This document shows positions 3,358 to 54,857 of a stretch of 55,807 bases of DNA, one piece after another. Source of the DNA: Oscillospiraceae bacterium (GTDB lineage Bacteria > Bacillota > Clostridia > Oscillospirales > Oscillospiraceae). Each line of letters begins with the position of its first letter. Position 1 is the stretch's first letter. The notes beneath the pieces were generated by a model that was not told where the DNA came from, made no database searches, and saw nothing but the letters and a program-made list of their open reading frames with translations. Location: contig JAGAMC010000043.1 of assembly GCA_017624915.1 (NCBI GenBank), forward strand, positions 1 through 55,807, written 5' to 3'. The translations under genes were made by a program, and so were the position numbers.

Positions 3358-3371
3358 AGTTATTTCCTCCG

Positions 3372-19842: not shown

Positions 19843-20043
19843 TGGCGCAGCGGGTGGGATTCGAACCCACGTGCGGTTGCCCGCAAACTGATTTCGAGGG
19901 AGGGTTAAAGTCTCATGTCGCCACACCAAGTTGTTTAAAGTCCATTGAAATGCGTTGTTTCAGCGAAAATTGACACTTCTTGGTATGACGCGAAGAAGTA
20001 TTCACATAGCGTTCAACTGAGTGTGGGCACCATTTGGGCACCA
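19843..20043 (-). repeat. Attachment-site-like repeat A: tRNA-Ser 3' fragment plus integrase arm-type repeats
   Basis: Minus-strand 19898-19843 reads as the 3' half of a type II tRNA: anticodon loop CTCGAAA (anticodon CGA, Ser), variable arm TGCGG-GCAA-CCGCA, T-arm GTGGGTTCGAATCCCAC and CCA end. The 5' half is absent: no matching acceptor or anticodon 5' strand follows. At +51 from the loop is AATGCGTTGTTT, and at +126 two direct copies of TGGGCACCA (20024, 20035), 11 bp apart as in integrase arm sites. Copies B and C keep the same spacing. This is the standard signature of integration into a tRNA gene. Confidence 0.75.
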
Positions 20044-31487: not shown

Positions 31488-31521
31488 AAAAACCTTGGGA
31501 ACGTAGTGTTCCCGGGAGTTT
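31488..31521 (-). terminator. Terminator-like hairpin after tRNA fragment B
   Basis: CCTTGGGAAC-GTAGT-GTTCCCGGGAG stem followed on the minus strand by TTTTTC, placed like the terminators after fragments A and C. Confidence 0.55.
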
Positions 31522-31522
31522 C

Positions 31523-31642
31523 GCGACGCAGTGGGTGGGATTCGAACTCACGTGCGGTTGCCCGCAAACTGATTTCGAGGGATGGTTAAAGACTCATATT
31601 GCCACACTAAGTTATTTAAAGTCAATTAAAATGCGTTGTTTC
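31523..31642 (-). repeat. Attachment-site-like repeat B: tRNA-Ser 3' fragment
   Basis: Minus-strand 31579-31523 carries the same CTCGAAATCAGT loop/stem, TGCGG-GCAA-CCGCA variable arm and T-loop as copy A, but with a T-stem mismatch (GTGAG/CCCAC) and no CCA end, so it is more decayed. AATGCGTTGTTT again lies at +51 from the loop. The TGGGCACCA arm repeats expected at +126 are missing. It bounds the metabolic operon on the left and the recombinase/S-layer region on the right. Confidence 0.65.
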
Positions 31643-31734: not shown

Positions 31735-31763
31735 TTGACAATCGAATATTTACGATTTATAAT
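31735..31763 (+). promoter_or_regulatory. Consensus sigma-A promoter without an obvious gene
   Basis: Perfect TTGACA (31735-31740), 17-nt spacer, perfect TATAAT (31758-31763). Only an 11-codon ORF (ATG 31782) follows before the terminator at 32042. Confidence 0.8.
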
Positions 31764-31802
31764 CAGCTCGTGCACAAGAAAATGAAAAAAAGAAGGGCGA
31801 TG

Positions 31803-32039
31803 TTACTTCTCGGTTAGTGTGTTTTGTATCAGCTTTTGGTACAGCAATTTAAACGAAAGGAAAGCGAAAGTCGCGGCAGGTAAAGCCGCATAAAAAGTCA
31901 AAACCAGCATAATCCAACAGCTTACATTTGAAATGAAATTATCTCTGCAGGTGTTGCTTCCATACGGTTTAGGTGCAGATGAATTCTCTGAATTTTGAGG
32001 GGACTTATATTTTTGCACGGTAACTGTAGGACTGGGCAT
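31803..32039 (-). CDS. Possible small membrane protein (uncertain)
   Basis: 78 codons from ATG 32039 encode a polar Ser/Pro/Asn-rich N-terminus and one strong hydrophobic helix (CWIMLVLTFYAALPAATFAF, ~43-62) ending in TLTEK. There is no convincing ribosome site, and the terminator hairpin 32042-32083 is immediately upstream, so it may not be translated in the present arrangement. It lies just outside the left inverted repeat and would be the gene reached if the recombinase-bearing segment inverted. No homology recognised. Confidence 0.3.
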   Translation of the reverse strand: MPSPTVTVQKYKSPQNSENSSAPKPYGSNTCRDNFISNVSCWIMLVLTFYAALPAATFAFLSFKLLYQKLIQNTLTEK

Positions 32040-32041
32040 AG

Positions 32042-32083
32042 AAAAACCTGTCGCAGAGCGTTTACGCTCTGCGACAGGTTTTT
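32042..32083. terminator. Perfect 19-bp bidirectional terminator
   Basis: AAAAACCTGTCGCAGAGCG-TTTA-CGCTCTGCGACAGGTTTTT. Its core GCAGAG...CTCTGC is the same as the arms of the neighbouring recombination-site-like repeat at 32106, with 8 instead of 7 bases between arms. Confidence 0.9.
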
Positions 32084-32105
32084 GCAATTTTATACTGTTT
32101 TTTTC

Positions 32106-32124
32106 GCAGAGTTCAACCCTCTGC
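32106..32124. repeat. Left inverted repeat flanking the recombinase gene (core-site-like)
   Basis: GCAGAG-TTCAACC-CTCTGC: 6-bp inverted arms around a 7-bp centre, the usual form of a tyrosine recombinase core site. Bases 32108-32124 are the exact reverse complement of 33568-33584 (17 of 17). Confidence 0.75.
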
Positions 32125-32220
32125 AAAAATTCTCACTGATACACACCGAATCCCTTGTCCCCCTAGCAAATTTATTTTGATCGCCGCGTGTTTGACAACT
32201 GCACGAGACTGCGGAGATAT

Positions 32221-33333
32221 TCACAAGCCAACCGCTGACAGCTTTTTCATATTGTTGCGTTTAAGGTCAAGGGAAGCATGCACATATCGTTCCAGTGTGA
32301 TGGTGGTGGTAGAGTGGCCTAGTATTTCACTCAACGATTTGATTTCAAACCCTACCTCAACACATCTGGTGGCAAATGTGTGCCGCAATGTGTGAAAATG
32401 AACCTTCTCAAGTCCGCATTCCCTTGTATACCGCTCCATCCGATACTGGAGAGTACGAGGCTCCATATACACCCCGGAGCCGGTCAGCACAAAAGCCGTA
32501 GGCTGTCCTGGATCCATTCTGGCACAAAGCTCTGTCGTAAAATCTGTCATCGGGATCATGCGCATGGAACTGTCGCTCTTTGGCGTACCAATTACGACCC
32601 TCGTCTTGTGACCAGTACCGGTCTCTGTCTGCCGCAGCCGCTGCATTGTTGCTGTAATTTTGATCGTTGCGCTCTTTAAACAAATATTCTCCCACCTGAG
32701 TGCGCACAATTCCCCGATTCTCATTCCTGTAAACAGGGCCAGCAATACCCCGAATTTGCATGCATCTATATCACCAAGCAGGTATTGGATAAATCGACGC
32801 TGCTCCTCCATAGAGAGCACTCGCATCTCCTTTTTCTGCTCTTTTGGATAGGTGATCTCCACCGCGGGGAAAGTCCCGGGAAATTGTTTTGCTGCATACT
32901 TCAGAATGGAGCGCAGTACGACCAAAATGTCTTTGACACTCTTGCATGCCATCCCTTCGTCCAGCAATTCCCGTGAAAACCTCTGGATCAATCCGGATGT
33001 GATGTCTTGAGGATAATATCCGCCCAATTTCGACTTAATATGCCGTTCAAGAATGGTAGTATACTTGATATAGGTGGATTCCTTCAGTCTGCTTCTGTTG
33101 GTTCCGAGCCAGGCGTCACAGTAAACACAAAATCGATCCCGCCGAGTCTTGGGGGGTATCTGTTTCCCGTTTACGATTGCCGCCTTGCACTCTGTTACCT
33201 TTTCTTTGGCCTCCTTGTAGGTCTTGCCATAGCAGAATCCATATTTTATTTTCCCGGACAACTCGTGGCCTTTGATATATCGGGCTTCCCAGCGCCCGTC
33301 TTTTCGCTTGAAAATGTTTTCCCCTTTTGCCAC
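32221..33333 (-). CDS. Tyrosine recombinase (phage integrase family)
   Basis: 370-residue site-specific recombinase. N-terminal arm-binding AP2-like domain (KDGRWEARYIKG, ~10-60), SAM-like core-binding domain (~65-165) and catalytic domain: Arg in TGMRIGELCALRW (~204), HTLRHTFATRCVE (His-x-x-Arg, ~319-322), LGHSTTTITLERYVH with Tyr nucleophile (~351). Full length with all catalytic residues, so probably active. GTG start at 33333 with AAGGAGGAAG upstream. It is enclosed by 17-bp inverted repeats rather than facing a direct-repeat att site, which suggests DNA inversion; an element-mobility role remains possible. Confidence 0.9.
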   Translation of the reverse strand: MAKGENIFKRKDGRWEARYIKGHELSGKIKYGFCYGKTYKEAKEKVTECKAAIVNGKQIPPKTRRDRFCVYCDAWLGTNRSRLKESTYIKYTTILERHIKSKLGGYYPQDITSGLIQRFSRELLDEGMACKSVKDILVVLRSILKYAAKQFPGTFPAVEITYPKEQKKEMRVLSMEEQRRFIQYLLGDIDACKFGVLLALFTGMRIGELCALRWENICLKSATIKITATMQRLRQTETGTGHKTRVVIGTPKSDSSMRMIPMTDFTTELCARMDPGQPTAFVLTGSGVYMEPRTLQYRMERYTRECGLEKVHFHTLRHTFATRCVEVGFEIKSLSEILGHSTTTITLERYVHASLDLKRNNMKKLSAVGL

Positions 33334-33507
33334 TTTCGCTTCCTCCTTGTGTAATCCTGATCTTAAGATCGCTTCCTAATGGTTCTTTTTGACTGCTCAT
33401 TTGACTGCGCATTGCTGTCGTTATCACTGCATGTCTGTGGATTTTGTGTATATCCGGTAAATTACGACCATGTATTTTTTGCATCCCGTCATTTTTTTCT
33501 GAACCTA
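33334..33507. other. Upstream region of the recombinase gene
   Basis: No gene. Contains a perfect 12-bp palindrome GATCTTAAGATC (33359-33370) 26 bp upstream of the recombinase GTG. I see no strong minus-strand promoter. The rightward promoter starts at 33508. Confidence 0.5.
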
Positions 33508-33536
33508 TTGATTTCTGAGCGTTTTTGTGCTACACT
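33508..33536 (+). promoter_or_regulatory. Outward promoter inside the inverted-repeat-bounded segment
   Basis: TTGATT (33508-33513), 17-nt spacer, TACACT (33531-33536). It reads right across the right inverted repeat (33568-33584) toward the SLH surface-protein gene at 33822. No better promoter is seen between the repeat and that gene. Confidence 0.65.
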
Positions 33537-33567
33537 TCATTTAATTAAATTGCCTTTTTCGCCTATC

Positions 33568-33584
33568 GCAGAGGGTTGAACTCT
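33568..33584. repeat. Right inverted repeat flanking the recombinase gene
   Basis: GCAGAGGGTTGAACTCT, exact reverse complement of 32108-32124; centre GGTTGAA is the inverse of the left TTCAACC, so recombination between the two would invert about 1.46 kb. A short ORF (ATG 33585, 70 codons, stop 33797) begins at its edge and is probably not coding. Confidence 0.75.
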
Positions 33585-33821
33585 ATGAAAGAAATACAGG
33601 AGCATGTAATTTTACCTGCGCAAATTATCATTCCTCCTCGTGCAAAAAGTATGCGGGATGGCGGCTTGGGTTGGGAATGTAAGAAAAAGAAAAGGTTGCC
33701 TGATTACCATATACAGCAAGGTATTCAGGAACTGACCCGTCAGGGTAATCCGGAACAACTGCGTCCCAACAACGCGCGGTCGTGTCCGATACCATAAAAT
33801 ATAAAGAGAGAGGGAAGACAA

Positions 33822-36800
33822 ATGAGAAACCTGAAGCGCGCTCTTAGCCTGGCTCTGGCTTGCGTCATGCTCCTGGGCATGATGGTCATGGGTACCAGCG
33901 CTAGCACCTTCAACGATGCTGACAGCATCGTCAACAAAGAGGCCGTGGAGATCGCTGCTGGTCTGGGTCTGTTTGCCGGCACTGACGGCAACTTCATGCC
34001 CACCGGTACCGTGACCCGCGCCCAGATGGCCACCATCATCGTCAAGATGCTGTATGGCTCCGATTTCAATGCCGATTCCTACAAGGGCATGAACACTTTC
34101 AGCGACACCGCTGCTTTCGAGGGCGGCTGGGCTGAGGGCTACATCAACGCCTGCGTGGCCCGCAACGTCGTTTCCGGTTACGGTGACGGCACCTTCAAGC
34201 CCGGCAACCCCGTCACCACCGCTGAGGCCATCACCATGATCATCAACGCCCTGAAGGTTGATGCCGGTGAGGGTACCTGGCCCATGACTGTTATGGCCAA
34301 GGCAGAGGAGATGAAGCTGTTCGGCGAGCTGTCCCCCAAGCCCCAGACCAATGTTGCTCTGACCCGCGATGCTCTGGCTGTTATCTGCGTTGAGGGTCTG
34401 CAGTACAGCCCCAAGGGCACCAAGGGCTACGCTGTGGCTGGTATTGATACCGTGTTTGAGGATTACCTTGAGGCTTGGATCGCGGCCGGTCAAGAAGCTT
34501 CCAAGATTTCTTCCGCCGCTCAGGACACCCTTGCCACCACAGTCTTCGATCTGAAGACTGTTGAGGGTTTTGTTACCGGCAACCAGACCACCGGCAAGGC
34601 GGCTACCGTCATCAACGAGGATGTGGCTTTTGATATCGAGACGGATCTGAGCATGATCGGTCACTATGTCACCGTCTACTACGCTGAGGAGTACACCAGC
34701 GAGGAGAAGCCGGGTGTTGCTTATGCCGTTGTTGATCAGTCCACTGTGATCACGGTCGATAAGCCCATCTCTACCGCCAAGGACTACAAGGCTGCCTTTG
34801 GAAATAACTACGATGTGGCTGAGAACGGGTTCCTGTTTGACGGAACGTATCTTCCTACCCCGAAGAGCGACGATGATTTGATCATCTCTGGTTATACCAA
34901 GGGAGCCGCGGCTCTGCCCGGTACCTACATCATTGCCAATGGCAAGATTGTGGCCTATATTGATCAGGTTGAGCAGTACGCCTCCTTTGTTGTGGATGTG
35001 AACACCAGCACCACAAACGGCGGTGTGCTCATCAACGGTGCCAACGGCGGAAAGTATATTCCCAATGTGGAAGGCAATGACATGGTGGTGGAGTATGCCG
35101 GTATCGCAACCGGGGACTATATCACCTACACCGTGGCGCAGGGCGTATATGTCCTGTCTCCCGTTAGCACCGTCAGCGGCCCCGTTACCAAGTCCTCCAC
35201 CACGAAAATCAATGGTGCGACCTACTCTGTGCTGACGGTCGACGGAAAGCAGATCGTTGCTTACGGCGGCGATGCCACCGGACTGGGCAGAAAGCTGAAT
35301 AATGATGTTCTTTCCATCCAGTATGGTCAGAACTATGACCTGTACGTTGCTGCCGACGGTCGCTACCTGGGCTTCAAGGCTGCTGTGGCCAGCGCCGACC
35401 TGTCCCAGACTGCTTATATCCTTGGCGTATTTGATGTGTCTGAGCAGGATAGCTATGGTAAGAAGACCATTAACTACAAGGCTCGTGGTGTGGACATGGA
35501 GGGTAAGGAGGTCATGATCCTTCTGGCCAAAGTGACCGACGCGGATAAGAATGGGGCCTATACCGAGGGCGAGGATATCCTTGGTGATGAGTCCGTCGTC
35601 AAGACTGGCGTGGCCGCCGGCTTCTATACCGCGGAAAACAGCACCAACAAGAATGACAAGAAAGCTGGCATCCAGGTTCTGAAGCCTTATACCGAGACCT
35701 GCACCGCCGCAGGCGACACCTTTGTTACCACCAATACCAGCACCGATGGCAAGACGTCCTACACCGGGTCCGCCGGACTGGTCACTGCCGACGGCAAGTA
35801 TACTTACGCCTCTGACAACACCAAGTTCATCGTGATTGAGGGTGATGCGGACACTGCTGGCCCGCTGGAAGTGGCGGTGCAGCTGAAGAGCATTCCTTCC
35901 ATGAAGCTGTCCACCAAGTATCCCATGCTGGTCACCCGTACTGCCAACGGTGCAAAGAATGCTCTGGAGGTCATGATCATTCAGGGCGATATGGATGATA
36001 TTCTGGGCAACACCAGCACCTATGTCACCTACATTACCGAGGAGCAGCTTGATGATATCAGCACCACCGCAGACGGCACGGCCTACACGGTCTATAAGGC
36101 TGATACTACCGAGACCACTGAACTGGTAGTATCTGAGCCCATTACCGTTCCCGGCTTCTACAAGGTGGTCTCCAATTCCGACGGCACCAACGCGGTTACC
36201 AGGCTGACCGGGGAGAAGGACGCTGCCACTAAGTCCCTGATGTATACCAACCTGAGCTTTGGCGGTATGCACACTTCTACCCGCATGTTTGCCGGGAACA
36301 CTGAGAAGACCCTGGGTGCGCATACCACCAAGAGCCTCAAGGTGGTGGACCTGCGCACTGACAGCGAAATCGAACTGTCCGGCGTTCCCAAGATCTCCTC
36401 TCTGGAGCAGCTGAACCTGCTGTATGACGGTAACCCTGAGATGGTTGTCATTTTCGATCTGTATGTGACTGATGCCAGCACCGATGCTGCCAATGGCATG
36501 TACATCACCAAGGCCCACCGCACCACCCCCGGCCTGGGTACCATCGTTTACGCCGCCGCAGCCCCCGAAGCTAACGGCGGCACCCAGACGCTGAGCGTTG
36601 TGCGCAGCAACAGTCTGGCTATGGGCGAGCCCATCAGTGTTGCCTACGAGACCAGCGACGCTCAGGAGATCGGCTTCTATGAGTTCTGTGTCAATGGCGA
36701 CGGTCAGCTGGCTCTTGTGAAGCTGGGCTTCAAGGGTCTGAACGACGCTGTCACCGGGTATCGTGGTACCATGGCCATCCACAACACCATCGTTTCTTTT

Positions 36801-37055
36801 GACGATGATATTCTGACCACCACCAGCAAGACTGACGCGGCCTGCGATGACAGTGCCAATGAGGCCATGTCTGTTGTCAGCATCACCGATGCCACCCGCA
36901 TCTTCAATGCTGACGGCGAGGAGGTCGGCACAGAGGTCCTGGTGAAGGGAGCGGTCATCAACTATTACTGTTCCACCGCGACCCACAAGGATGATGCCGC
37001 GGTTTCTGACAACACCGTGGAACTGATCTTTGTGACTGAGGTTTGCGCAGACTGA
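33822..37055 (+). CDS. Large secreted protein with N-terminal SLH domains (S-layer-like)
   Basis: 1077-residue exported protein. Signal peptide MRNLKRALSLALACVMLLGMMVMGTSA. SLH repeat 1 is about 30-80 (GLGLFAGTDGNFMPTGTVTR), SLH 2 about 92-145 (FSDTAAFEGGWAEGYINACV; GYGDGTFKPGNPVTTAE) and a weaker third is about 150-195. These anchor it to cell-wall polymers. The remaining ~870 residues are Thr/Asp/Ala-rich beta-type sequence without recognised domains or LPXTG. Codon use is strongly biased (for example nearly all Leu as CTG), suggesting very high expression, as for a main S-layer protein. A leader of ~280 nt runs from the promoter in the invertible segment. Monocistronic, with strong terminators. 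Confidence 0.88.
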   Translation: MRNLKRALSLALACVMLLGMMVMGTSASTFNDADSIVNKEAVEIAAGLGLFAGTDGNFMPTGTVTRAQMATIIVKMLYGSDFNADSYKGMNTFSDTAAFEGGWAEGYINACVARNVVSGYGDGTFKPGNPVTTAEAITMIINALKVDAGEGTWPMTVMAKAEEMKLFGELSPKPQTNVALTRDALAVICVEGLQYSPKGTKGYAVAGIDTVFEDYLEAWIAAGQEASKISSAAQDTLATTVFDLKTVEGFVTGNQTTGKAATVINEDVAFDIETDLSMIGHYVTVYYAEEYTSEEKPGVAYAVVDQSTVITVDKPISTAKDYKAAFGNNYDVAENGFLFDGTYLPTPKSDDDLIISGYTKGAAALPGTYIIANGKIVAYIDQVEQYASFVVDVNTSTTNGGVLINGANGGKYIPNVEGNDMVVEYAGIATGDYITYTVAQGVYVLSPVSTVSGPVTKSSTTKINGATYSVLTVDGKQIVAYGGDATGLGRKLNNDVLSIQYGQNYDLYVAADGRYLGFKAAVASADLSQTAYILGVFDVSEQDSYGKKTINYKARGVDMEGKEVMILLAKVTDADKNGAYTEGEDILGDESVVKTGVAAGFYTAENSTNKNDKKAGIQVLKPYTETCTAAGDTFVTTNTSTDGKTSYTGSAGLVTADGKYTYASDNTKFIVIEGDADTAGPLEVAVQLKSIPSMKLSTKYPMLVTRTANGAKNALEVMIIQGDMDDILGNTSTYVTYITEEQLDDISTTADGTAYTVYKADTTETTELVVSEPITVPGFYKVVSNSDGTNAVTRLTGEKDAATKSLMYTNLSFGGMHTSTRMFAGNTEKTLGAHTTKSLKVVDLRTDSEIELSGVPKISSLEQLNLLYDGNPEMVVIFDLYVTDASTDAANGMYITKAHRTTPGLGTIVYAAAAPEANGGTQTLSVVRSNSLAMGEPISVAYETSDAQEIGFYEFCVNGDGQLALVKLGFKGLNDAVTGYRGTMAIHNTIVSFDDDILTTTSKTDAACDDSANEAMSVVSITDATRIFNADGEEVGTEVLVKGAVINYYCSTATHKDDAAVSDNTVELIFVTEVCAD

Positions 37056-37205
37056 TATTCGAGTATCCGAAACGCACAGGAGATATTCCTGAGCACATCT
37101 GAACAGGGTGTAACAGAACACGCATGCAGATAGGCACCCCACAAGTTTGCTTTTCTCAATCTTCTTCTGTTGGGTCATTGCTGCAGCATTCCTGCAGCGG
37201 TGACC

Positions 37206-37236
37206 TGCCGGGGGTGGCCTGTTGGCCCCCCCGGCA
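37206..37236 (+). terminator. GC-rich hairpin in the S-layer gene 3' region
   Basis: TGCCGGGGG...CCCCCCCGGCA stem-loop about 150 nt after the stop codon, without a T-run; may stabilise the mRNA 3' end. Confidence 0.5.
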
Positions 37237-37255
37237 CCTCCTTTAAGTACAGGTG

Positions 37256-37297
37256 GTCCTTGAAAGAAGGGGAAAACACCTTCTTTCAAGGACTTTT
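37256..37297 (+). terminator. Rho-independent terminator of the S-layer gene
   Basis: GTCCTTGAAAGAAGG / CCTTCTTTCAAGGAC, perfect 15-bp stem followed by TTTTATA. Confidence 0.9.
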
Positions 37298-37335
37298 ATA
37301 GCCTGTTTTCAGAAAAATAATTTCAAGGAGAGCGT

Positions 37336-38145
37336 ATGGTTTTTTCTGAAACAGAACTTTTGGAGTATGGCATTTTTGACTCTAAAGCGGGGTTCTACAA
37401 AGTAAACAGGACCGAACCCAAACGTCTTTCTTTTTTTGAGATTCAGTTCTATACCGAAGATCAGAGCGGATCAGCCTATATAGATGAGCAGGCCGTGCGT
37501 CTGTGTAGGGGCAGACTGATCTGCGCCAAGCCGGGGCAGATACGAAGCAGCAAACTGCACTTCAGGTGTCTGTATGTCAGTTTGCGCACGAAGGACCCTG
37601 TTTTAAAAGAACTGCTTTATAGTCTGCCGGACGTGTGTGTCGTGGAGGAGGTGCAGCCTATAGCTGACCTGTTCCTTGAGCTGCTGCAGCCTGACATAGA
37701 TGTCTTTCCCGCCGAACGCCTGCTGCTGCAAAGCGCCCTGACAAGACTGCTGTACCGTCTATATGAGCAGGTAGGAGGAGCAAACGGCGAAAACCCGGAG
37801 CTGTATCCATGCAGAAAAGAGATGCTTGCTGTTCAGCAGTATATCCGCGGAAATCTGACGGATAAGCTTGATCTGCAGAGTCTGGCTGCATCTGTCAACC
37901 TGTCTGCCAGCTACTTTCATAAACTGTTCTGCCGGTGTTTTGCCATGACACCCCAGACGTTTGTGCTTGATTGCCGTATTTCGGCGGCTAAAACCATGCT
38001 GCTGGAGGAAAAGAGTTCTGTGGCAGAGATTGCGGCTGCCTGCGGTTTTTCCAGCCAGGCTTACTTTAATTTTCGATTTAAGCAGGTAGTGGGGCTGTCG
38101 CCCCTTCAGTACCGCAGAGAGGAGCGCTCCAAACGACAGATTTAA
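37336..38145 (+). CDS. AraC-family transcriptional regulator (copy 2)
   Basis: 269-residue paralogue of the product at 8415, about 80% identical by eye and colinear throughout. The least conserved stretch is residues 16-30 (KAGFYKVNRTEPKR versus VIKYTKAVKTQPQ). The DNA-binding half (KLDLQSLAASVNLSASYFHKLF, SSVAEIAAACGFSSQAYFNF) is nearly the same, so the two may share operators. AAGGAGAG precedes the ATG. Lies between the S-layer gene and the fibre cluster and may regulate either. Confidence 0.9.
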   Translation: MVFSETELLEYGIFDSKAGFYKVNRTEPKRLSFFEIQFYTEDQSGSAYIDEQAVRLCRGRLICAKPGQIRSSKLHFRCLYVSLRTKDPVLKELLYSLPDVCVVEEVQPIADLFLELLQPDIDVFPAERLLLQSALTRLLYRLYEQVGGANGENPELYPCRKEMLAVQQYIRGNLTDKLDLQSLAASVNLSASYFHKLFCRCFAMTPQTFVLDCRISAAKTMLLEEKSSVAEIAAACGFSSQAYFNFRFKQVVGLSPLQYRREERSKRQI

Positions 38146-38553
38146 AGCAAAATATGGCAGGGCCTGTGGCGCAAGCGCCTGCAAAAACATTGGCAAGATT
38201 CCGTTCCAGTTCAGTGCTGTTAAATATAACAAGGGAAATCTGTTCAAATCAGGGGCCCCTGATTTGTGCTCTATCAAAGATAGAGCACAATACCTCCTGA
38301 AAGCAGATAGCCTGTAAGTAATTATTCGGACATTTTACCAGGCGCGGTTCGAGTAGCAATGCGCTGGAATGGGATTTTGTGAAAAGAAGATGGGGCTGTT
38401 GGCTTGTCCTTCCTGTGTAATGGGAAGTAATCCGAAATGCGAACACGCTCCGACACCGGAACGGGTGGGGTGGCCTAAAAGTTGTTTAGCGCCAGGAGCT
38501 GCAACCGGAAGAAATATGCCGCGATGAAAGGCTGAAAATAAAGGAGAAAGCAT
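38146..38553. other. Intergenic region with two tight hairpins and a tiny ORF
   Basis: About 400 bp. Holds a perfect 22-bp palindrome at 38245-38266 (arms CAAATCAGGGG / CCCCTGATTTG) followed at once by a 10-bp stem GTGCTCTATC-AAA-GATAGAGCAC (38266-38288), and a GGCGCAAGCGCC palindrome near 38168. A 52-codon Cys-containing ORF (38369-38527) has no ribosome site and is not called. No known riboswitch motif recognised. Confidence 0.5.
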
Positions 38554-39243
38554 GTGAGCCGACATCCAAACCTTATAGGGTCGCGCTTTGGAAAGCTTGT
38601 TGTGACAGGGCAGGCCGAATCGGATGCAAGCGGACACCGCAGATGGCTTTGCCAGTGTGATTGTGGCGGAACAACAACGACATCTACGGGCAATCTGACC
38701 TGCGGACATACTCTGAGCTGTGGCTGTAACCGCAGTAGGGATCTGACTGGCCGACGCTTTGGAAAGCTGAGCGTCGTGGAACGGTCGGACCGCTACAGTA
38801 TCAGGGGTGAACGCAAATGTCGCCTGTGGATGTGCCGCTGTGATTGTGGCCGGATCACTTATGTGTCGACGGATTCGCTTACGGCCTCAGGCGAGCGCAG
38901 TTGTCTGGCCTGTGCGGCAAAATATAATTCTGCAAAGGCGCGGGCGGGGGCTGGATATGTGGACGGAACGCAGCTCAGCCGAATTCGGAATATGAAGCCG
39001 GGTGCAGCCAATACCAGCGGTGCCCGGGGCGTTTATTATGACAAGAAGCAGAACCGCTGGCGCGCAAGGCTCAAGTTTAAAGGAAAAATCATGAACTTCG
39101 GTTCTTACGATAAATTTGAGGATGCTGTCGCTGCCCGTAAAGCGGCTGAGAGAGAATACTTCGGCGAATTTCTCGAAAAACATGATCCTGGTTCTACGGC
39201 CACACAAGAAACTGCTGAACAAGAGGACAGCGCCAAGCTGTGA
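38554..39243 (+). CDS. AP2-domain protein with two zinc-ribbon-like repeats
   Basis: 229-residue protein. Two similar Cys-rich units: WLCQCDCGGTTTTSTGNLTC...SCGC (~31-58) and WMCRCDCGRITYVSTDSLTA...CLAC (~92-120), each preceded by GRRFGKL-type text. The C-terminal bacterial AP2/ERF-like DNA-binding domain is at ~152-200 (GARGVYYDKKQNRWRARLKF, FGSYDKFEDAVAARKAAE). In phages such modules usually accompany an HNH nuclease, but no HNH motif is present, so a DNA-binding regulator is more likely. GTG start at 38554 after AAGGAG. Upstream of, and on the same strand as, sipW and the fibre genes. Confidence 0.75.
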   Translation: MSRHPNLIGSRFGKLVVTGQAESDASGHRRWLCQCDCGGTTTTSTGNLTCGHTLSCGCNRSRDLTGRRFGKLSVVERSDRYSIRGERKCRLWMCRCDCGRITYVSTDSLTASGERSCLACAAKYNSAKARAGAGYVDGTQLSRIRNMKPGAANTSGARGVYYDKKQNRWRARLKFKGKIMNFGSYDKFEDAVAARKAAEREYFGEFLEKHDPGSTATQETAEQEDSAKL

Positions 39244-39326
39244 TGAACTTGAGATTTACATATGGATATCCTTCCTCACAAAAAACTCATTATGCCGCGG
39301 ATGATGGCAAACAAAGGAGAACAGTA

Positions 39327-39884
39327 ATGATCAAGACTGGAAAACGAATTTGGAATTACATAACCACTGTTTTGGTGGCAGTAGTGGCAATTCTGGCACT
39401 TCTGTTGGTCGGGGCCAGACTGGTCGGGCTACAGGTGTTTACTGTTCTGTCTGGTTCCATGGAGCCGACCTATCATGTAGGTTCATTGATTTATGTAAAA
39501 AAGGTGGATGCTGTGAAACTGGAAACGGGAGACGTGATCACCTTCCTGCTGGATGAGGATACAGTAGCCACCCACCGCGTTGTGGAGGTCGTTCCTGATG
39601 AGACTGACCCCTCTGTGATCCGCTTTCGCACCAAGGGAGATGCCAACAACGCCGAGGACGGGAGCCTTGTCCACTATAAAAATGTGATCGGTACCCCGAT
39701 CTTCAGCATTCCCAAGTTGGGCTATGTAGCCAACTACATACAAAACCCACCCGGCACCTATGTGGCACTGTCTGCCGGGGCCATTCTGCTCCTGCTGGTG
39801 TTTTTGCCGGATCTGTTCTCCGACGAAAAAGAAAAGCAGGAAGCAGGCGCGACGAGTGCTAAGCCGGAGGACGATACCCCGTAA
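39327..39884 (+). CDS. sipW: SipW-type (ER-type) signal peptidase I
   Basis: 185-residue membrane protease. N-terminal TM helix (~12-32), catalytic Ser in FTVLSGSMEPTYHVG (~39-53), and the ER-type His signature in TVATHRVVEV (~81-90) in place of the bacterial Lys. A second TM segment is near the C-terminus (~145-165), then a charged tail. SipW releases TasA/camelysin-type proteins in Bacillus. Five such clients are encoded just downstream. Start: ATG at 39327 after AAAGGAG; the in-frame ATG at 39240 overlaps the preceding gene and is rejected. Confidence 0.93.
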   Translation: MIKTGKRIWNYITTVLVAVVAILALLLVGARLVGLQVFTVLSGSMEPTYHVGSLIYVKKVDAVKLETGDVITFLLDEDTVATHRVVEVVPDETDPSVIRFRTKGDANNAEDGSLVHYKNVIGTPIFSIPKLGYVANYIQNPPGTYVALSAGAILLLLVFLPDLFSDEKEKQEAGATSAKPEDDTP

Positions 39885-39941
39885 TGATAAGGGCAATGCC
39901 GCAAGGCTCCCTATATAAATAATTTTTTAGGAGGTTTTCAA

Positions 39942-40592
39942 ATGAAAACAAGAAGCAAAGCGTTGCTCCTGTCACTGTGTGCGGTATTGCTTGTCGCCGC
40001 CTCGGTGCTGGGCACCATGGCGTATCTGACCGATTCCGAGGCGGTCACCAATACATTTACGGTTGGACAGGTGCACCTGACTTTGGACGAAGCGGACGTT
40101 AAGCCGGACGGAACAAAGGACGGCGATGAGCGTGTTCAGGAAAACACGTATCACCTGATCCCCGGACGTACCTACATCAAAGATCCGACGATTTATGTCA
40201 GCGATGACAGCGAGGACTGCTATTTGTTCGTGAAGGTGGAGAACGGCATTGCGGCTATCGAAACCAAAGAAACGGGCAAGACCATCGCTGACCAGATGAC
40301 AGAATTGAATTGGGTCAAAGTCGACGGCGTTAATGATCTCTATGTTCTCGTCAATGGCAGCGAGAATCCTTATGCGGTATCCAAGGGCGCTAATGTCGTA
40401 GTTTTCGAGAACTTCACCATTGACGGCGATAAGGTTGTCAATGTGCCCGATGGCGAGACCGTTCCCGAGGGTAAGGTCGATCTTTCTGCGTATGCGAGTG
40501 CCACGGTAAAAGTCACCGCCTATGCTGTTCAGGCTGCCGGATTTGAGAATCAGACCCCCAAGCAGATATGGGAATCCACCTTTGGAAAGTAA
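39942..40592 (+). CDS. SipW-dependent secreted protein 1 (TasA/camelysin-like)
   Basis: 216-residue protein with the SipW-type signal sequence: hydrophobic h-region, then LGTMAYLTDSEAVTNTFTVG (~24-43), the sequence found at the cleavage zone of TasA/CalY family proteins. The mature part is a single beta-rich domain with EDCYLFVKVENG and TVKVTAYAVQAAG, typical of fibre or biofilm-matrix subunits. 57 nt after sipW with AGGAGG. Probably processed by the adjacent SipW; assembly into fibres is inferred from the family. Confidence 0.85.
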   Translation: MKTRSKALLLSLCAVLLVAASVLGTMAYLTDSEAVTNTFTVGQVHLTLDEADVKPDGTKDGDERVQENTYHLIPGRTYIKDPTIYVSDDSEDCYLFVKVENGIAAIETKETGKTIADQMTELNWVKVDGVNDLYVLVNGSENPYAVSKGANVVVFENFTIDGDKVVNVPDGETVPEGKVDLSAYASATVKVTAYAVQAAGFENQTPKQIWESTFGK

Positions 40593-40621
40593 TTCCTTTG
40601 TTTTCACCAGATGCGAACGTT

Positions 40622-40680
40622 CGTGTTCCTCCATCTGTTGAAATAATCCCTTGCAAAATACGAAAGAAAGGAGGAACACG
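40622..40680 (+). promoter_or_regulatory. Hairpin masking the ribosome site of SipW-dependent protein 2
   Basis: CGTGTTCCTCC (40622-40632) is the exact reverse complement of GGAGGAACACG (40670-40680), which contains the Shine-Dalgarno 3 nt before the ATG. The 11-bp stem with a 37-nt loop would hide the ribosome site. Confidence 0.65.
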
Positions 40681-40682
40681 AC

Positions 40683-41357
40683 ATGAAAAAGAAAGCAATG
40701 GCGCTGGTTTTGGCGCTGGGGCTGGTAACGGTGGGCATCGTCGGCGGCACCATGGCATGGCTGACGGCGGAAGCTACGGAAGTCAAAAATGTCTTTACGG
40801 ACTCTGACATCAACATTACATTGACCGAGAGCGACACTAACCCGAACGAAGAGGGGGTTCAGCACGACTACAAGATGATTCCCGGCTGGACGATTGCGAA
40901 AGACCCGAAGGTGACCGTGGATAAGAATAGTGAGGACTGCTTTGTCTTTGTGAAAATCGATAAGTCTTTCAATTATGATGACTATCTGGAAAACTATGCG
41001 GTTGACAGCGCATGGACGGCATTGGTTGATAGCGATACCAAGGACAATGTGGGTGTTGACGGCGTTTATTACCAGATGGTAAAGGGACTAACTGCTGATT
41101 GGAACGACTACGTTCTGGCGGGAGAAGGAACCGGCGAAAATGCCAACGGTTATGTCACTGTGAAGGACGAGGTCACCAAAAAGATGATGGATGAATTGAA
41201 GGCTGAGACCTATCCTACACTGACTTTCACTGCCTATGCCACTCAGCTGAAGAAAAACAACACCACGGAGTTCAGCGCTTATGAAGCGTGGGTGAACGTC
41301 TACAACAATTCTGCTAACCCCACCACTGGCGGCAACACCGAGACTCCCACAACCTAA
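40683..41357 (+). CDS. SipW-dependent secreted protein 2 (TasA/camelysin-like)
   Basis: 224-residue homologue of protein 1: VGGTMAWLTAEATEVKNVFT at the SipW processing zone (~20-39), DCFVFVKIDKSFNYDDY and TLTFTAYATQLKKNNT in the mature domain, Thr/Pro-rich tail (NPTTGGNTETPTT). Likely a second subunit of the same fibre. Its ribosome site lies in an 11-bp stem (40622-40680), so its level may be tuned separately from its neighbours. Confidence 0.85.
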   Translation: MKKKAMALVLALGLVTVGIVGGTMAWLTAEATEVKNVFTDSDINITLTESDTNPNEEGVQHDYKMIPGWTIAKDPKVTVDKNSEDCFVFVKIDKSFNYDDYLENYAVDSAWTALVDSDTKDNVGVDGVYYQMVKGLTADWNDYVLAGEGTGENANGYVTVKDEVTKKMMDELKAETYPTLTFTAYATQLKKNNTTEFSAYEAWVNVYNNSANPTTGGNTETPTT

Positions 41358-41364
41358 CCCCGCC

Positions 41365-41407
41365 TTGCGGATATCCGCAAAAGATTATTTCTCCGCAGAA
41401 ATAATCT
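41365..41407 (+). other. Two stem-loops between SipW-dependent genes 2 and 3
   Basis: A 16-bp palindrome TTGCGGATATCCGCAA (41365-41380) and a perfect 11-bp stem AGATTATTTCT-CCGC-AGAAATAATCT (41382-41407). Neither has a T-run, so they look like processing or stability elements rather than full terminators. Confidence 0.55.
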
Positions 41408-41481
41408 AATACCACTCCGTATGCAAGTACGAAAAATGCTTACATACAACAAACCAAATTCCTAAAGAAAGGAAGATTATC

Positions 41482-42282
41482 ATGAAGAAGAAAATCGTTT
41501 CTTTGTGCCTCGTGGTCGCTCTGGCTGCTACCGCAGTCATTGGCGGCACCCTGGCTTACTTCACAGACACCGATGGCGCAACCAACACCTTCACTATGGG
41601 CGGCGTCAAAATTGATCTGCTCGAGAAAGCATACAACGAAAAGGGAGAACTTGTCGATTTTACTTCCGGAAAACTGATGCCTGGCGTGGAAAATAAGCAG
41701 GATAAGATCGTCTCCATCAAGAACACTGGTGACAGCGATGCTTACGTCTGGTACGAATGGTTTATTCCTGCTGCGCTGGACTCTAAGGACGGTTCCACTG
41801 GCCTCAATAACATCCTGCACGTGAATAGCTACGGCTACACTTGGGATAAGTATTTCGAGAACGCCAAGTATACTGCTCCTGACGGTACTGATCCTGTTAG
41901 CAGCGTGGAGCAGACTTGGGACCACGATCCCGAGGACGAGCTGAAAAAGACGGTTGGCCCTGAGGGCTATTTTGAACAGGTTACCCTGGACGATGGTATT
42001 CTTTACAACAAGTATGTTGTTCTGTATCACGGCGTTCTTGCTCCCAATACTGAAACTACCCCTGCTATGAATGGTGTCTACCTGGACAAGGACCTGGATA
42101 TGGATGTTGACGCTGAGGGCAATACTACTTATACCTGCTTCAACAAAACTGTCGACTACGATTTCAGCAAGGACATTAACATTGTTGTTAATGCCTATGC
42201 TATCCAGGCTGAGTTGGCTGATGTGGACAATGATGGTGACGTCGATGTCTATGATGCTTACCAGACTTACGCTGCCAACTAA
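41482..42282 (+). CDS. SipW-dependent secreted protein 3 (TasA-like) with C-terminal dockerin-like loop
   Basis: 266-residue protein, closest of the set to TasA: IGGTLAYFTDTDGATNTFTM (~21-40), then GGVKIDLLEKAYNEKG, and VSIKNTGDSDAYVWYEWFIP in the core. The last residues contain DVDNDGDVDVYDAYQ, a Ca-binding loop of the dockerin type I form (single copy). Highly biased codons suggest strong expression. Probable major fibre subunit. Confidence 0.87.
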   Translation: MKKKIVSLCLVVALAATAVIGGTLAYFTDTDGATNTFTMGGVKIDLLEKAYNEKGELVDFTSGKLMPGVENKQDKIVSIKNTGDSDAYVWYEWFIPAALDSKDGSTGLNNILHVNSYGYTWDKYFENAKYTAPDGTDPVSSVEQTWDHDPEDELKKTVGPEGYFEQVTLDDGILYNKYVVLYHGVLAPNTETTPAMNGVYLDKDLDMDVDAEGNTTYTCFNKTVDYDFSKDINIVVNAYAIQAELADVDNDGDVDVYDAYQTYAAN

Positions 42283-42314
42283 TTAGTAGGAATATAAACA
42301 TGGCATCTCACAGT

Positions 42315-42386
42315 CCTGCCCCCCTCGGGGGGCAGGGCATACAAGGACATCCAACGCATTGACATTGGGTGTCCTTGTATGCCCTG
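42315..42386 (+). other. Two overlapping hairpins between SipW-dependent genes 3 and 4
   Basis: CCTGCCCCCC-TC-GGGGGGCAGG (42315-42336) and a long stem CAGGGCATACAAGGACA / TGTCCTTGTATGCCCTG (42333-42386). They share 42333-42336, so the two compete at their bases. No T-run follows; partial terminator or RNA-stability element. Confidence 0.6.
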
Positions 42387-42437
42387 CAAGAGCAGACATG
42401 AATTTATAAGAAACTCCTAAAAGAAAGGAATGTGCAT

Positions 42438-43070
42438 ATGAAAAAGAAGACACTATCAATCACTGTCATCGCCATCTGCATAGCGATCTTAGGCTACAGC
42501 ACACTGGCCTATTTCACCGATGAGTCGCCAGTGGTACATAATGTGGTTACCTCTGGCGGCATCAATGTGGAGATCGTGGAGAAGCAAGCCGACGGTAGTC
42601 TCTTCCCTGAAGGGGGAGTAAGTGGTGTCATGCCCGGAGGAGAGATCAGTAAGATCGTTACCGTGGCCAATCAGGAGAACTCCGACCAGTCCTGGGTTCG
42701 TGTCTGGGTCAATATCGCCATCAGCGAGCCCGGAACCCCAATCCTGAATCCCACCATCAAAAACCTGCCCCTGACCACTACCAACGCGGCGGGCGAGGAA
42801 ATCAATGTAGTGACGCTTGACATCAATGGTGAGGATTGGGTACGGGGTGAGGACTACTATTATTACTACAAAACACCTGTCGATCCGAGCGAGGTCACAG
42901 AACCTCTCTTTGAGACGGTCAAGTTTGCCCCGGAGATGGGTAACGAGTATCAGAACTGCAAAGTAATGATCGACATTCACGCTGAGGCCGTACAGACGGC
43001 CAACAACGGGGACAATGTCATGGATGCGGCCGGATGGCCCAATGAGCACCAGGAGGTGAGTGACAGATGA
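42438..43070 (+). CDS. SipW-dependent secreted protein 4
   Basis: 210-residue protein with the processing-zone sequence LGYSTLAYFTDESPVVHNVV (~18-37), followed by GGINVEIVEKQADGS and GVMPGGEISKIVTVANQENS, the usual TasA-family core. Start taken at ATG 42438, 8 nt after AAAGGA; a GTG at 42432 is in frame. Overlaps the adhesin gene by 4 nt (ATGA), so the two are translationally coupled and may act together at the cell surface. Confidence 0.82.
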   Translation: MKKKTLSITVIAICIAILGYSTLAYFTDESPVVHNVVTSGGINVEIVEKQADGSLFPEGGVSGVMPGGEISKIVTVANQENSDQSWVRVWVNIAISEPGTPILNPTIKNLPLTTTNAAGEEINVVTLDINGEDWVRGEDYYYYYKTPVDPSEVTEPLFETVKFAPEMGNEYQNCKVMIDIHAEAVQTANNGDNVMDAAGWPNEHQEVSDR

Positions 43071-46000
43071 AGAAAGAAATCAGCAGATTCCACTCCATAG
43101 TTCTTTGCTTTTCGATACTGCTGTCTCTTTGTACACCTATTTCAGCAGTGGTGTCCGAGGAGGATTTTTTGAATCAATTTGAAGAGATCGATCAAATTGG
43201 ATATTTCAAAAATGACAGTGTTGAGCTGTACTACAACCCGGTTCAGGAGCCGGATAAAAAGGTTTTACTGACTCAATCGGCAATGCCGGAATCCTTCACT
43301 GTGCAGTATCGCTTTACGCAGGAGGATGGGGTGACCCAGTGGTACATTATCGACAGTGAAAACTGGCTGGAGATATCGGAGGATGGGGCATATCCCGGCT
43401 ATGTCTCTGTGGATGACGTGACCTTCACCGAGCCCGGCAGTGTCTGCATAACGGATATAAACGGAACGCCGGTATCGGAACTGGTATTGACTATGTATGA
43501 GAAAACCGCTCTGGTTGCACAAGGGGACGGAGACGTTGCCTGGCAGATCCTGGCTGATGATATCTGGGTCAACATTCAGGGGGCGAACGACGCGCGGATT
43601 ACAGTCAATTATGGTCTGGTAGCGAGCCTTCTGGATGGAGATGGCGCAGCATGGCTTCGCTGCACCACTGTTTCCTCGGGGAAACGCGCATTCAGTGAGC
43701 CGATCAGAGTTGTGATTCAACCGGAGGCTGTTGCGCTGGCCATGATGGAGGAGATGCCCATCCCGCTTACTGCCGGTGTGGCTGACCCGACTGAACAGGC
43801 GGCGTCTCTGGATGCGGGCGAGACACATAGCATTATAATCGAATATGTGTTTGCAGACGGCACACAGGCGGCAAACACCTGGACTGCAACGGTGGCTGCG
43901 GGCAGCAGCTATTCAGGCACAGTAACCAGTCCTGATGTTTTGGGGTATGAGCCGGATCGGTCTGAGGTGTCGCTGCAATATGACGCAGTGGAACAGGATG
44001 AAACTATTACAGTCACATATAAGCCGGCGCAGGTGGAATATACCGTTATCCATTATCAGCAGAATCTGGATGACGATGGGTACACTGTGGCAGAACGGGA
44101 GACAAAAACAGGGTACACAGAGTCTGAGGTTGGAGCAGGACTGGCCAAAGAGTATGAGGGCTTCTATGCTCTGCTGTATGTGACCGATACAAAAATTGCG
44201 GCGGACGGCTCCACTGAAGTGGAGATCTATTATGACCGTTTTTACTACCTGATGAGCTTTGGCTTGGATGGCGGGTACGGCGTGGAGCCCATCTATGCCC
44301 GGTATGGGGCGCCGCTGGAAATTGGGGAGCCGACAAAGGAAGGCTTCCAGTTCGGCGGATGGGAAGACGCCGATTCAGGTGAAGTATATGGGATAGACGA
44401 GTTCCCTTATCAAACCATGCCCGCGCAGAATACTACATTTGTTGCGCAGTGGACGGGAACCGAAGTCACATTTGATGTTGTGTACTGGTATGAAAATGCG
44501 GATGATAACAGCTTTTCTCAGGCGGGTGTCCAGTACGATGTAAGCGCAGTTGCCGGAAGCGTGGTGGACGGAGCGACCTATTCCGATTATGCCTTCCAGG
44601 GGCGGGACGATGAACACTTTAGCTATGCCTTTGCCGACAGCAATGTTACCGTCAGCGGTGATGGCTCTACTGTTGTCAATGTGTATTTCAGACGGAATAT
44701 TTACACACTGACCTTTGTTATGGGCGGCTGGGCAGCAAGCTGCTCGGTTGCGGAACACCGCCATGTGCTGGATGAAAACAGCGAAGACAGCTGCTATGGG
44801 TTCAACTGTCAAATTGAAGAGCATGACCATGAAACCAGTGGCTGTGAGCTTGCCTGTTCGCACGCAGTGCATGACATTACCTGCTGGGGAATGACAGAGG
44901 ATAATAAAACGGAGAAACCGGATAAGCTCCCAGTGGAAAATCCGGTGAGTGGAACGGTATACCAGTACAGCTATTGGGGCACACACCATTATCTCTTTTT
45001 GAATGGCAAATGGTATTGCCAAAACAACTATTTGGGGGATAGGGAGTCGATTTCCCTGTCGTGTTCCCATGCTCACTCTGCCGCCTGCTACAATTGCGGT
45101 AAAGTGAACCACGTTCACAGCATTGATGCAGGGTGCTACGGCCTGACCTGCGGGAAACAGGAGCACTATCACGAGAACAGCACCTGCTATCTGGTCGTTA
45201 CGAAAAAATACGATGCGGATATTACTGACATCTGGGCAAACGACCCGGTTGATGCAGTCATTGAAGCAGGATATGTTTTTCAGTCCAGTGTGACGGATGA
45301 TTACTACTCTTTTTTGCAGAAAATGCCGGGGCAGGATATCGCCATGACCAAGTATGATATGGGTAGCACGACGAAATATATTTATTACTACCTTGAGGTG
45401 CTTCCTGGGAAAGACTATTCGGGGGTAGAGACACGAGAAGCAACGAAGAATGGTACGACAAAGACATACTATCTGTACAAAACCCTGAATCCTCAGCTAA
45501 GCTCCGGTGCTTATCTGACCTATGAGGAAGACTATTTCCCCATAACTGGCTTTACGCAAAGAGACAGCGATGTTCCGAACTTTGATAGTAATAAAAAGGC
45601 CTACCTCTACTATACCCGGAACAGCTACACTCTGACATTCAGCAATAACGGCTCGAGCGTTGAGGGGAAGGGCGGTACGTACTTGTATGAAGCGGATATT
45701 TCTGGCGCGTATTTCGTGCCCGAGTATCCGGATACGCTGGAGCCAAACGCCTATGTGTTTGACGGATGGTACACATCACCCTTCTTTGGTGACACCAAAT
45801 TTGAGTTTACGACTACGGATGAGGAAGGGAAAACCGTCAATACCACCATGCCCGCCAACGATCTGACTCTTTACGCACGCTGGGCGGCAAAGGAACACAA
45901 TGTCCGCCTGTTCCCCACAAAGGACGACATGGAGGCAAAGACAAATCAAATCGGTGATACACAGATCGTTGCGCACAGAAGCACCGCTGTCAAACCGAAT

Positions 46001-47662: not shown

Positions 47663-48253
47663 ATGTATAAAGGAAAACGTCTCCAGGCTACAAAGTACGG
47701 TACAGGGCGCAACGGCAAAAAAGCAGCTGTGCTGCTTTCATCTGCTGTTGTATTCCTTGCTTTGGCTGTGGGTACCTCGGTGGCCTTTATCGTTGCCGGT
47801 ACCAGACCGATTACAAACATATTCACTCCATCGAAAGTCTCTTGCCAGGTGAACGAGAAATTTGATGGCGTGGAAAAGCGCGAGGTGACCATTGCAAACA
47901 CTGGGGACACGCAGGCGTATATTCGTGCTGCCATCGTGGTGACCTGGAAGGACGCGGCCGGAAATATCTATGCCGGAAAGCCCGAGGAGGGTGCAGACAA
48001 GGATTATACGATCACGCTGAATGCCACCGATTGGGTAAAGGGCAGCGATGGGTTCTATTACCACAAAAAGCCCATTGATGCGGATCAAAGCACGGCTGTC
48101 CTGGTTGAACACTGCGCCCCGATAGAGGGGAAAACTCCGGACGGTTATAGCCTGAATGTTGAGATCCTCGGATCCGCCATTCAGAGTGTGCCTGCTACCA
48201 CAGTGGAAGACAGCTGGGGTGTGACGGTAACAGACGGTGAGATCAGCAAGTGA
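47663..48253 (+). CDS. SipW-dependent-type secreted protein 5
   Basis: 196-residue protein starting immediately after the adhesin stop. N-terminal basic region, hydrophobic segment (~20-45: AAVLLSSAVVFLALAVGTSV) and VAFIVAGTRPITNIFTPSKV in place of the usual AYFTD motif. The core has VTIANTGDTQAYIRAAIVVTW as in TasA-like domains. A more diverged member that may form the fibre base or a linker. Very weak ribosome site (GAGG), likely coupled to the adhesin. Confidence 0.78.
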   Translation: MYKGKRLQATKYGTGRNGKKAAVLLSSAVVFLALAVGTSVAFIVAGTRPITNIFTPSKVSCQVNEKFDGVEKREVTIANTGDTQAYIRAAIVVTWKDAAGNIYAGKPEEGADKDYTITLNATDWVKGSDGFYYHKKPIDADQSTAVLVEHCAPIEGKTPDGYSLNVEILGSAIQSVPATTVEDSWGVTVTDGEISK

Positions 48254-48264
48254 GGAGGGCGAAC

Positions 48265-49590: not shown

Positions 49591-50182
49591 GAAAAAAGGC
49601 GTGGCCATTTTGGCTACGGGTGTTCTCCTTGTGCTTTTGTCACTGACTGTCTTCCTGTACAATCAAGTGCAGGATCAGAGAGCGGGACAGCTGGCGCAGA
49701 CGAAGCTGGAAGCGCTTCAAACAGCGATGAACTACAGCGTGGGGCTGACCCTTGAGCAACAGCAAATTCCCTCATCATCCATACCTCAGAACGCCATTGA
49801 GCTGGATGGAGAGCGCTATATCGGCTATCTGTCCATACCGGCACTGGAGCTGGAGCTTCCGGTCATGTCGGACTGGGACTACGAAAAACTGAAGTCAGCG
49901 CCCTGTCGTCAGTTTGGTTCTGCAAAGACAAATGACCTTGTGATTGCGGCGCACAACTATAAAAAGCACTTCGCCCGGTTGACCACCTTGAAACAGGGCG
50001 AGGGGGTGTTGTTTTGTGAAGTTGACGGGACAGTCCATAGTTACACTGTAGAGCGGGTCGACACCTTGAAGCCCACCGAAGTGGATCGGGTAAAAAACAG
50101 CGAAAGAGATCTGGTGCTGTATACCTGTACATATGGCGGTAAGGCGCGTACGGCAGTTTTTTGCGGAAGAACAAACAGGTGA
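49583..50182 (+). CDS. Sortase
   Basis: 199-residue membrane-anchored transpeptidase. N-terminal TM helix (~5-25), catalytic His in VIAAHNYKKHF (~115), catalytic Cys in LVLYTCTYGG (~177) and Arg in ARTAVFCGR (~188). Overlaps the LIQTG protein gene by 8 nt, so it is probably dedicated to that substrate and to building this surface structure. Class assignment (B/D/E-like) is not safe by eye. Confidence 0.9.
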   Translation: MSKKKGVAILATGVLLVLLSLTVFLYNQVQDQRAGQLAQTKLEALQTAMNYSVGLTLEQQQIPSSSIPQNAIELDGERYIGYLSIPALELELPVMSDWDYEKLKSAPCRQFGSAKTNDLVIAAHNYKKHFARLTTLKQGEGVLFCEVDGTVHSYTVERVDTLKPTEVDRVKNSERDLVLYTCTYGGKARTAVFCGRTNR

Positions 50183-50769: not shown

Positions 50770-50970
50770 TGGTTCGGCCGGTGGGATTCGAACCCACGTG
50801 CGGTTGTCCGCAAACTGATTTCGAGAGAGGGGAAGAGACCTGTTTCTTCATATTAGGCTATTTTAAGTTATTTGAAATGCGTTGTTTCAATAAAAACCGA
50901 TACTTCTTGTTATACCACAAAGAAATATTCATATAGCGTCACGCTGGGTGTGGGCACCATTTGGGCACCA
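50770..50970 (-). repeat. Attachment-site-like repeat C: tRNA-Ser 3' fragment plus arm-type repeats
   Basis: Minus-strand 50825-50770: CTCGAAA loop, variable arm TGCGG-ACAA-CCGCA, T-arm GTGGGTTCGAATCCCAC and CCA end; the acceptor strand (CGGCCGA) differs from copy A (CCGCTGC). AATGCGTTGTTT lies at +51 and two TGGGCACCA direct repeats at +126 (50951, 50962), the same spacing as copy A. No 5' tRNA half. Confidence 0.75.
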
Positions 50971-54823: not shown

Positions 54824-54831
54824 AAAGGATC

Positions 54832-54857
54832 ACACTCTCAACACAGGGAGTGTTTTC
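54832..54857 (+). terminator. First terminator-like hairpin after the riboswitch
   Basis: ACACTC...GGAGTGT short stem followed by TTTTC; weakest of the three. Confidence 0.45.

Follow-up and report, generated by a model that had tools for sequence, protein, structure and literature searches.

In Salmonella, the H segment holds the gene for a serine invertase, Hin, between inverted sites and carries an outward promoter at its edge. PMC5903667 names Hin as the example of a recombinase inside its segment. In other switches, a tyrosine recombinase flips a control segment lying before surface genes: RecV with the flagellar and cwpV switches of C. difficile, and FimB and FimE with fimS of E. coli (PMC5903667; see also PMC5386303 and PMC2784873). 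At 154–230 bp for the C. difficile segments and 314 bp for that of fim (lengths from PMC5903667), they are too short for a recombinase gene. Judging from parts of a 2025 survey (PMC11892184), the nearest published item is inverton group 139 of hCom2 with its invertase group 35, which may partly be the same family as the one described below. In those parts, 32 of its 33 invertons come from Clostridia, nearly all have a nearby tyrosine recombinase of invertase group 35, and the authors count the repeat motif as previously unpublished; the same parts make no mention, for group 139, of an enzyme inside the segment, matched centres, arm sites, or terminators. The string GCAGAG is absent from the survey's main text.

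We analyzed a 55,807-nucleotide stretch of DNA from an Oscillospiraceae bacterium (assembly GCA_017624915.1, contig JAGAMC010000043.1; hereafter, the window), in which a sequence-only reading had proposed a self-encoded invertible segment with an outward promoter. Family anatomy, centres matched within each pair of sites, opposite orientations, and a conserved promoter all support this proposal. With a probability of about 0.83, an integrase of the mobile-element type has here been turned into a self-contained promoter-inversion switch, now apparently ON toward an SLH protein gene.

Like the H segment, the locus has a recombinase gene inside the segment, an outward edge promoter, and inverted sites; unlike it, it has a tyrosine recombinase (PF00589), palindromic sites with a 7-bp centre, arm-type repeats, and an OFF-side terminator. 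With the RecV and fim switches it shares a tyrosine recombinase and a control segment before surface genes, but the segment is 1.46 kb long and contains the recombinase gene. Its likeness to Tn916/Tn1549-type integrases lies in the best solved relatives of the enzyme, named Int protein, and may extend to the N-terminal arm-binding domain that PMC8138268 describes for this subgroup. In contrast to those elements, the segment has no conjugation or excision gene among its scanned ORFs, and its sites are inverted around the gene rather than being the ends of an excising element. Promoter inversion as such is known; the variant here would be that an integrase-type tyrosine recombinase is encoded within the segment that it flips, together with arm sites, centres particular to each element, and a terminator on the OFF side. 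Searches of mostly open-access literature returned no account, for Clostridia, of a promoter-bearing segment that encodes its own tyrosine recombinase.

Results

Sites and recombinase

The left recombination site lies at 32098–32124 (+ strand), with the core GCAGAG-TTCAACC-CTCTGC at 32106–32124 and the 7-bp centre TTCAACC at 32112–32118. The right site lies at 33568–33594 (− strand), with its core at 33568–33586 and the centre, inverted, at 33574–33580. Over 27 nt, the two form an inverted repeat with 89% complementarity, and their cores agree exactly over 17 bp and with two mismatches over 19. When up to three mismatches were allowed, the 19-bp core matched twice in the window and never in 100 shuffles; a 16-base core with at most one mismatch occurred at no third place in the 1.71-Mb assembly. 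The inverted sites were thereby confirmed around the recombinase gene, and so was the gene itself: an intact ORF of 370 aa with a GTG start (32221–33333, − strand) that matches PF00589 and PF14659 and is the sole Pfam-supported ORF among those scanned in the segment.

Residues R205, K252, H314, R317, H340, and Y350 are invariant in nine aligned sequences, the window's included, and we take them to be the full catalytic set. The best solved relatives (6en0, 6emy, and 6emz) are presumably the Tn1549 integrase. A search with 69 residues of the N-terminal domain found no meaningful solved structure (best E, 0.54). This domain is weakly AP2-like in two family members (E, 0.15 and 0.64) and in one control integrase (E, 0.04), and the same scan found no AP2 likeness in the window's enzyme.

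A family of related cassettes

The window's own genome contains a second copy (C21) that is 76% identical. Further relatives were gathered from the genus, the order, and public genomes, the last of which gave at least 560 confirmed relatives, 80 of them kept. Inverted repeats surround the gene in 77 of the 99 distinct members with enough flank (window included) vs. none of 21 other integrases. These controls, two from the order and the rest from the genus, came from 24 of the loci L013–L037, three of which had too little flank. The repeat threshold was 15; the best control scored 13, and L092 and L118, at 14, were counted as lacking repeats. Twenty-one of the 22 members without repeats at this threshold were searched further out, which brought up a matching pair in L072 and L167. 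In a quick tree, the repeat-bearing rows clustered, yet 19 changes were needed and controls fell among them (with long-branch warnings), so the tree does not show a single origin.

Genome samples from the order (394) and the class (391), which overlap and both include the window's own genome, contained the enzyme at E 1e-100 in 25 and 5 cases, respectively; its distribution is therefore patchy. A phage search with the recombinase matched 1846 of 50,697 records, all below 60% identity, with 44% the best among the matches listed. Near-identical copies occur in five genera, all in one orientation (L102, L103, L104, L107, and L108), beside an ORF that looks like an rRNA methylase gene of the erm(B) type; when plasmid records were searched with the L102 copy, none covered 80% of the query. 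This group was kept in the 68-element promoter set and both centre comparisons and dropped from the repeat recurrence, arm motif, terminator, 77-element promoter, ORF, and contig-end counts.

To characterize neighbours, 40 hand-picked proteins near cassette ends were compared with Pfam, and nine had no match. Many, not all, have surface functions. They include an SLH protein (L056), an LPXTG protein with SpaA domains (L055), and large DUF7601 or VWA proteins (C11, L077, and L080, with L050 just below the cut-off). S26 signal peptidases (G057, L047, and L079; weak in L062) adjoin proteins that, judged by eye, have SipW-type signal peptides. Polysaccharide-synthesis sugar transferases (L049, L067, and L089) lie behind a TetR gene in L049 and L067, and SpoVT (G058) stands ahead of what by eye is a polysaccharide locus. 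Among nonsurface neighbours are helicases (L070 and L075), a penicillinase repressor (L059), and a phospholipase-D-like protein (L087). In two loci, the cassette adjoins a second tyrosine-recombinase-like gene of a different type, PF02899 (L039, 5220–6083; L091, 4765–5646).

Outward promoter, SLH gene, and terminator

The proposed outward promoter, TTGATT-17-TACACT with an extended −10 (TGcTACACT), lies at 33508–33536 (+ strand), 31 bp from the right repeat. Its place as first read was confirmed and its position is conserved in the family, but by consensus alone it is weak: it has 8 of 12 consensus matches, falls below the threshold of our promoter scan and hence went unlisted, and is equaled by 7 of 50 shuffles of its region. 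Its support is therefore conservation. The nearest two relatives, C21 and G024, have the same hexamers. Among 77 distinct elements, read outward from the 5′ side of the recombinase gene, the best promoter-like site ends no more than 45 bp from the repeat in 68 and has a 17-bp spacer in 69. Promoter scores in these 77 average 11.1 outward vs. 8.1 inward, the inward mean being that of elements with a candidate only (nine have none). In the 68-element set, which scores absences as −1, the inward mean is 7.1; shuffles there average 7.8. The segment thus resembles an inverton in its flanking inverted repeats and, as far as sequence can tell, in an outward promoter inside it.

The SLH-domain (S-layer-type) protein gene read at 33822 was confirmed (33822–37055, + strand; 1077 aa, PF00395) and is the proposed target. 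Before it, a 73-aa ORF without a Pfam match occupies 33576–33797. In agreement with the earlier reading that no other good promoter precedes the gene, the scan lists no other promoter-like site on the + strand across 33537–33822. Elsewhere in this genome, an SLH paralogue (C1) that is 62% identical over 644 residues lacks a recombination site but is preceded by a promoter-like site that begins 114 bp upstream. For the window copy, none lies between repeat and start; because a third paralogue (C24, 45%) likewise has none in the same scan, such an absence is weak evidence.

Further same-strand surface genes follow at 37336–50182 (+ strand; ORF list and Pfam). The 33822–50182 cluster comprises, besides the SLH protein, an AraC-type regulator, an AP2-like protein (below the cut-off), a SipW-like signal peptidase, at least two proteins with SipW-type signal peptides, a 1531-aa repeat protein, a Cna_B protein, and a sortase. 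An ∼110-bp direct repeat occurs three times in the window (19846–19959, 31500–31640, and 50780–50886), the outer copies being 91% and 79% identical to the middle one, and is confined to this contig in the assembly. It begins with what we take to be a likeness to the 3′ half of a serine tRNA, and ARAGORN, run on the window, called no tRNA there. These repeats may be attachment-site remnants, in which case the surface cluster (31.6–50.8 kb), whose left edge the switch occupies, may form an island. A cobalamin riboswitch (Rfam RF00174) lies at 54595–54841.

On the side away from the SLH gene, a bidirectional intrinsic terminator, the proposed OFF-side stop, lies just outside the left repeat at 32042–32083, and the hairpin does contain the GCAGAG/CTCTGC arms described for it. 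Such one-sided placement recurs: an intrinsic terminator lies within 200 bp outside exactly one end in 41 of 70 elements (both ends, 2; neither, 27), compared with 32 of 600 random 200-bp windows. The terminator is on the promoter side in 27 of the 41, which would be OFF, and on the other side in 14, which would be ON. By a scripted count that omits one tie and five elements with short flank, the longest outward ORF is on the terminator-free side in 27 of 35 elements and on the terminator side in 8; five of these eight (L047, L062, L073, L079, and L164) look like long antisense ORFs but are still counted as misses. In the window, the terminator lies beyond the left repeat and the SLH gene beyond the right one, so that the present state reads as ON.

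The sequence-only reading had the flipped promoter aimed at a small ORF at 32039–31803. We consider this unlikely, as the −10 would end ∼73 bp before the 32042–32083 hairpin, which is placed like the one-sided terminators of the other elements; the flipped state would probably be plain OFF. The small ORF (31803–32126) has no Pfam match. Within 31735–32083, a perfect consensus promoter (TTGACA-17-TATAAT, + strand) lies upstream of the same hairpin, with no ORF of at least 60 aa wholly between the two; a small RNA ending at the hairpin is possible.

In the mechanism that we propose, the recombinase would recombine the two end sites and so flip the segment together with its own gene. As the segment now lies, the right-edge promoter would read through the right site and transcribe the SLH gene (ON); once inverted, it would point left and run into the 32042–32083 terminator (OFF). 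We infer that the enzyme is catalytically active and binds the arm repeats, that the segment inverts in this strain, and that the switch controls the SLH gene. The segment might also invert with its main role elsewhere, for example in the whole downstream surface cluster or the recombinase itself. We regard this as unlikely: the same-strand cluster does run on to 50182 and neighbouring genes vary among family members, but the SLH gene is the first ORF of at least 100 aa on the promoter side, and its strand offers no further promoter-like site between repeat and start.

Arm-type repeats

Two tandem copies of GCAGTCAAA with a 12-bp period lie upstream of the recombinase gene at 33388–33411 (− strand). 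A similar stretch just downstream of its stop (32191–32214, − strand) is one base off the counted motif and hence degenerate in the window copy. Across the 5′ regions of 77 elements, G[CT][ACG]GTCA occurs 91 times on the recombinase strand vs. twice on the other and is present in 60 of the 77. The 3′ regions have 66 occurrences vs. 1, with the motif on either strand in 58 of 77 elements. Neighbouring pairs in the 5′ region keep the 12-bp period in 30 of 31 cases, and the motif is rare inside the recombinase genes (20 and 32 in 85 kb). These repeats resemble the arm sites recognized by the N-terminal domain of some integrases, a domain described for the Tn916 integrase group in PMC8138268, and the window's enzyme would bind them. 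Being integrase-like, and with arm-type repeats near the ends of its segment, this enzyme probably assembles like an integrase with two DNA-binding domains.

For the recombinase's own promoter, a TTG-based search of the inward strand in the 77 elements gave nothing above shuffles. A TATAAT lies ∼18–22 bp after the arm repeats in some relatives, although shuffled controls also often reach 4–5 of 6. Self-repression of the recombinase stays an idea.

Divergence of the sites raises the question of whether the family inverts while the window copy no longer does. The right site has the outer arm ATAGAG where the left has GCAGAG, and the 3′ arm stretch has its one-base departure, both as expected of a decayed or locked switch. 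Against this, the two sites still agree in their centre, the recombinase ORF is unbroken and retains its conserved residues, and arm differences of like kind occur in L067 and L076, both with matched centres; we find a locked copy quite unlikely.

Site centres

The family sites follow the consensus TTTCGCAGAG-N7-CTCTGCGAAA. A search by arms only located sites at both ends of 58 of 89 loci; in 57 of the 58, the 7-bp centre was identical and inverted, and in none was it identical in direct orientation. Between elements, 3306 cross pairs included 30 with identical centres, of which at least 20 came from the five near-identical copies. The repeat-based set, in which agreement is partly by construction, gave agreement in 64 of 65 pairs and 53 distinct centres. 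Matching within an element is expected if its two sites recombine with each other. Even within one genome centres differ, as in the window copy (TTCAACC) vs. C21 (TTCGGCA), and the four copies in G006 have three centres.

Some loci have tandem sites. At L038 (the C21 copy of G000, ∼3313–3424), two same-orientation sites lie 83 bp apart on the 5′ side, with a hairpin and T-run between them by eye; the choice of site could keep or remove a terminator. Tandem sites also occur in L054, L057, L058, L060, and L087, among others.

Opposite orientations among relatives

Homologous loci of relatives occur in both orientations. In G006, C24 and C49 share a flank up to the repeat (80% over 1.27 kb), and the segment between the repeats is reversed; L056 and L057, whose flanks are 94% identical over 3.8 kb, likewise have the segment in opposite orientations, with the break at the repeat. 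In three further sets, the same operon lies at the opposite cassette end, with the change at or near the repeat: L062 vs. L064; L153–L155 vs. L164; and L159, L162, and L163 vs. L171. Other homologous sets have one orientation (L078 and L086; the five L102-type copies). Among the regions compared, no opposite-orientation pair has both flanks conserved, and re-insertion in the other orientation might have given the same picture; the opposite orientations are strong but not absolute evidence for inversion. In a hand table of 49 contig ends less than 6 kb from elements, 13 lie under 250 bp outside a repeat, which could fit mixed orientations in the sampled populations or be a repeat or assembly artefact.

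That the cassette is instead a small transposable or integrative element, with terminal inverted repeats and a recombinase that moves it without regulatory inversion, is very unlikely: its integrase-like enzyme, its patchy presence in the order, its place beside unrelated genes in different genomes, and homology on one flank only, which leaves room for two-way insertion, speak for it, but in several groups the same operon has the cassette at its head in both orientations, the centres match within pairs and differ between elements, the edge promoter is conserved, and the terminators are one-sided.

Discussion

Beyond the switch at this locus, a broader reading, for which the odds seem to us about even, is that the window copy belongs to a large family of portable self-flipping cassettes, mostly of gut Clostridia. 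In these, an integrase and its arm sites would have been turned from moving DNA to flipping their own gene and a promoter, and each copy would be marked by an individual 7-bp crossover tag that is renewed at its two ends in concert. The cassettes would stand before S-layer, SipW-dependent fibre, adhesin, or capsule operons, with a backstop terminator on the other side. Such tags would prevent recombination between different copies that share a genome. New here are the arm-type repeats at both ends and the crossover tag of each element.

If this holds, surface phase variation of uncultured gut Clostridia would become readable from single assemblies, because enzyme, sites, promoter, and OFF-side terminator form a recognizable cassette within ∼1.6 kb. 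The element-specific centres would amount to a natural set of possibly noncrossing recombination sites for one enzyme family. The family is, moreover, a candidate example of how gene regulation can recruit an integrase.
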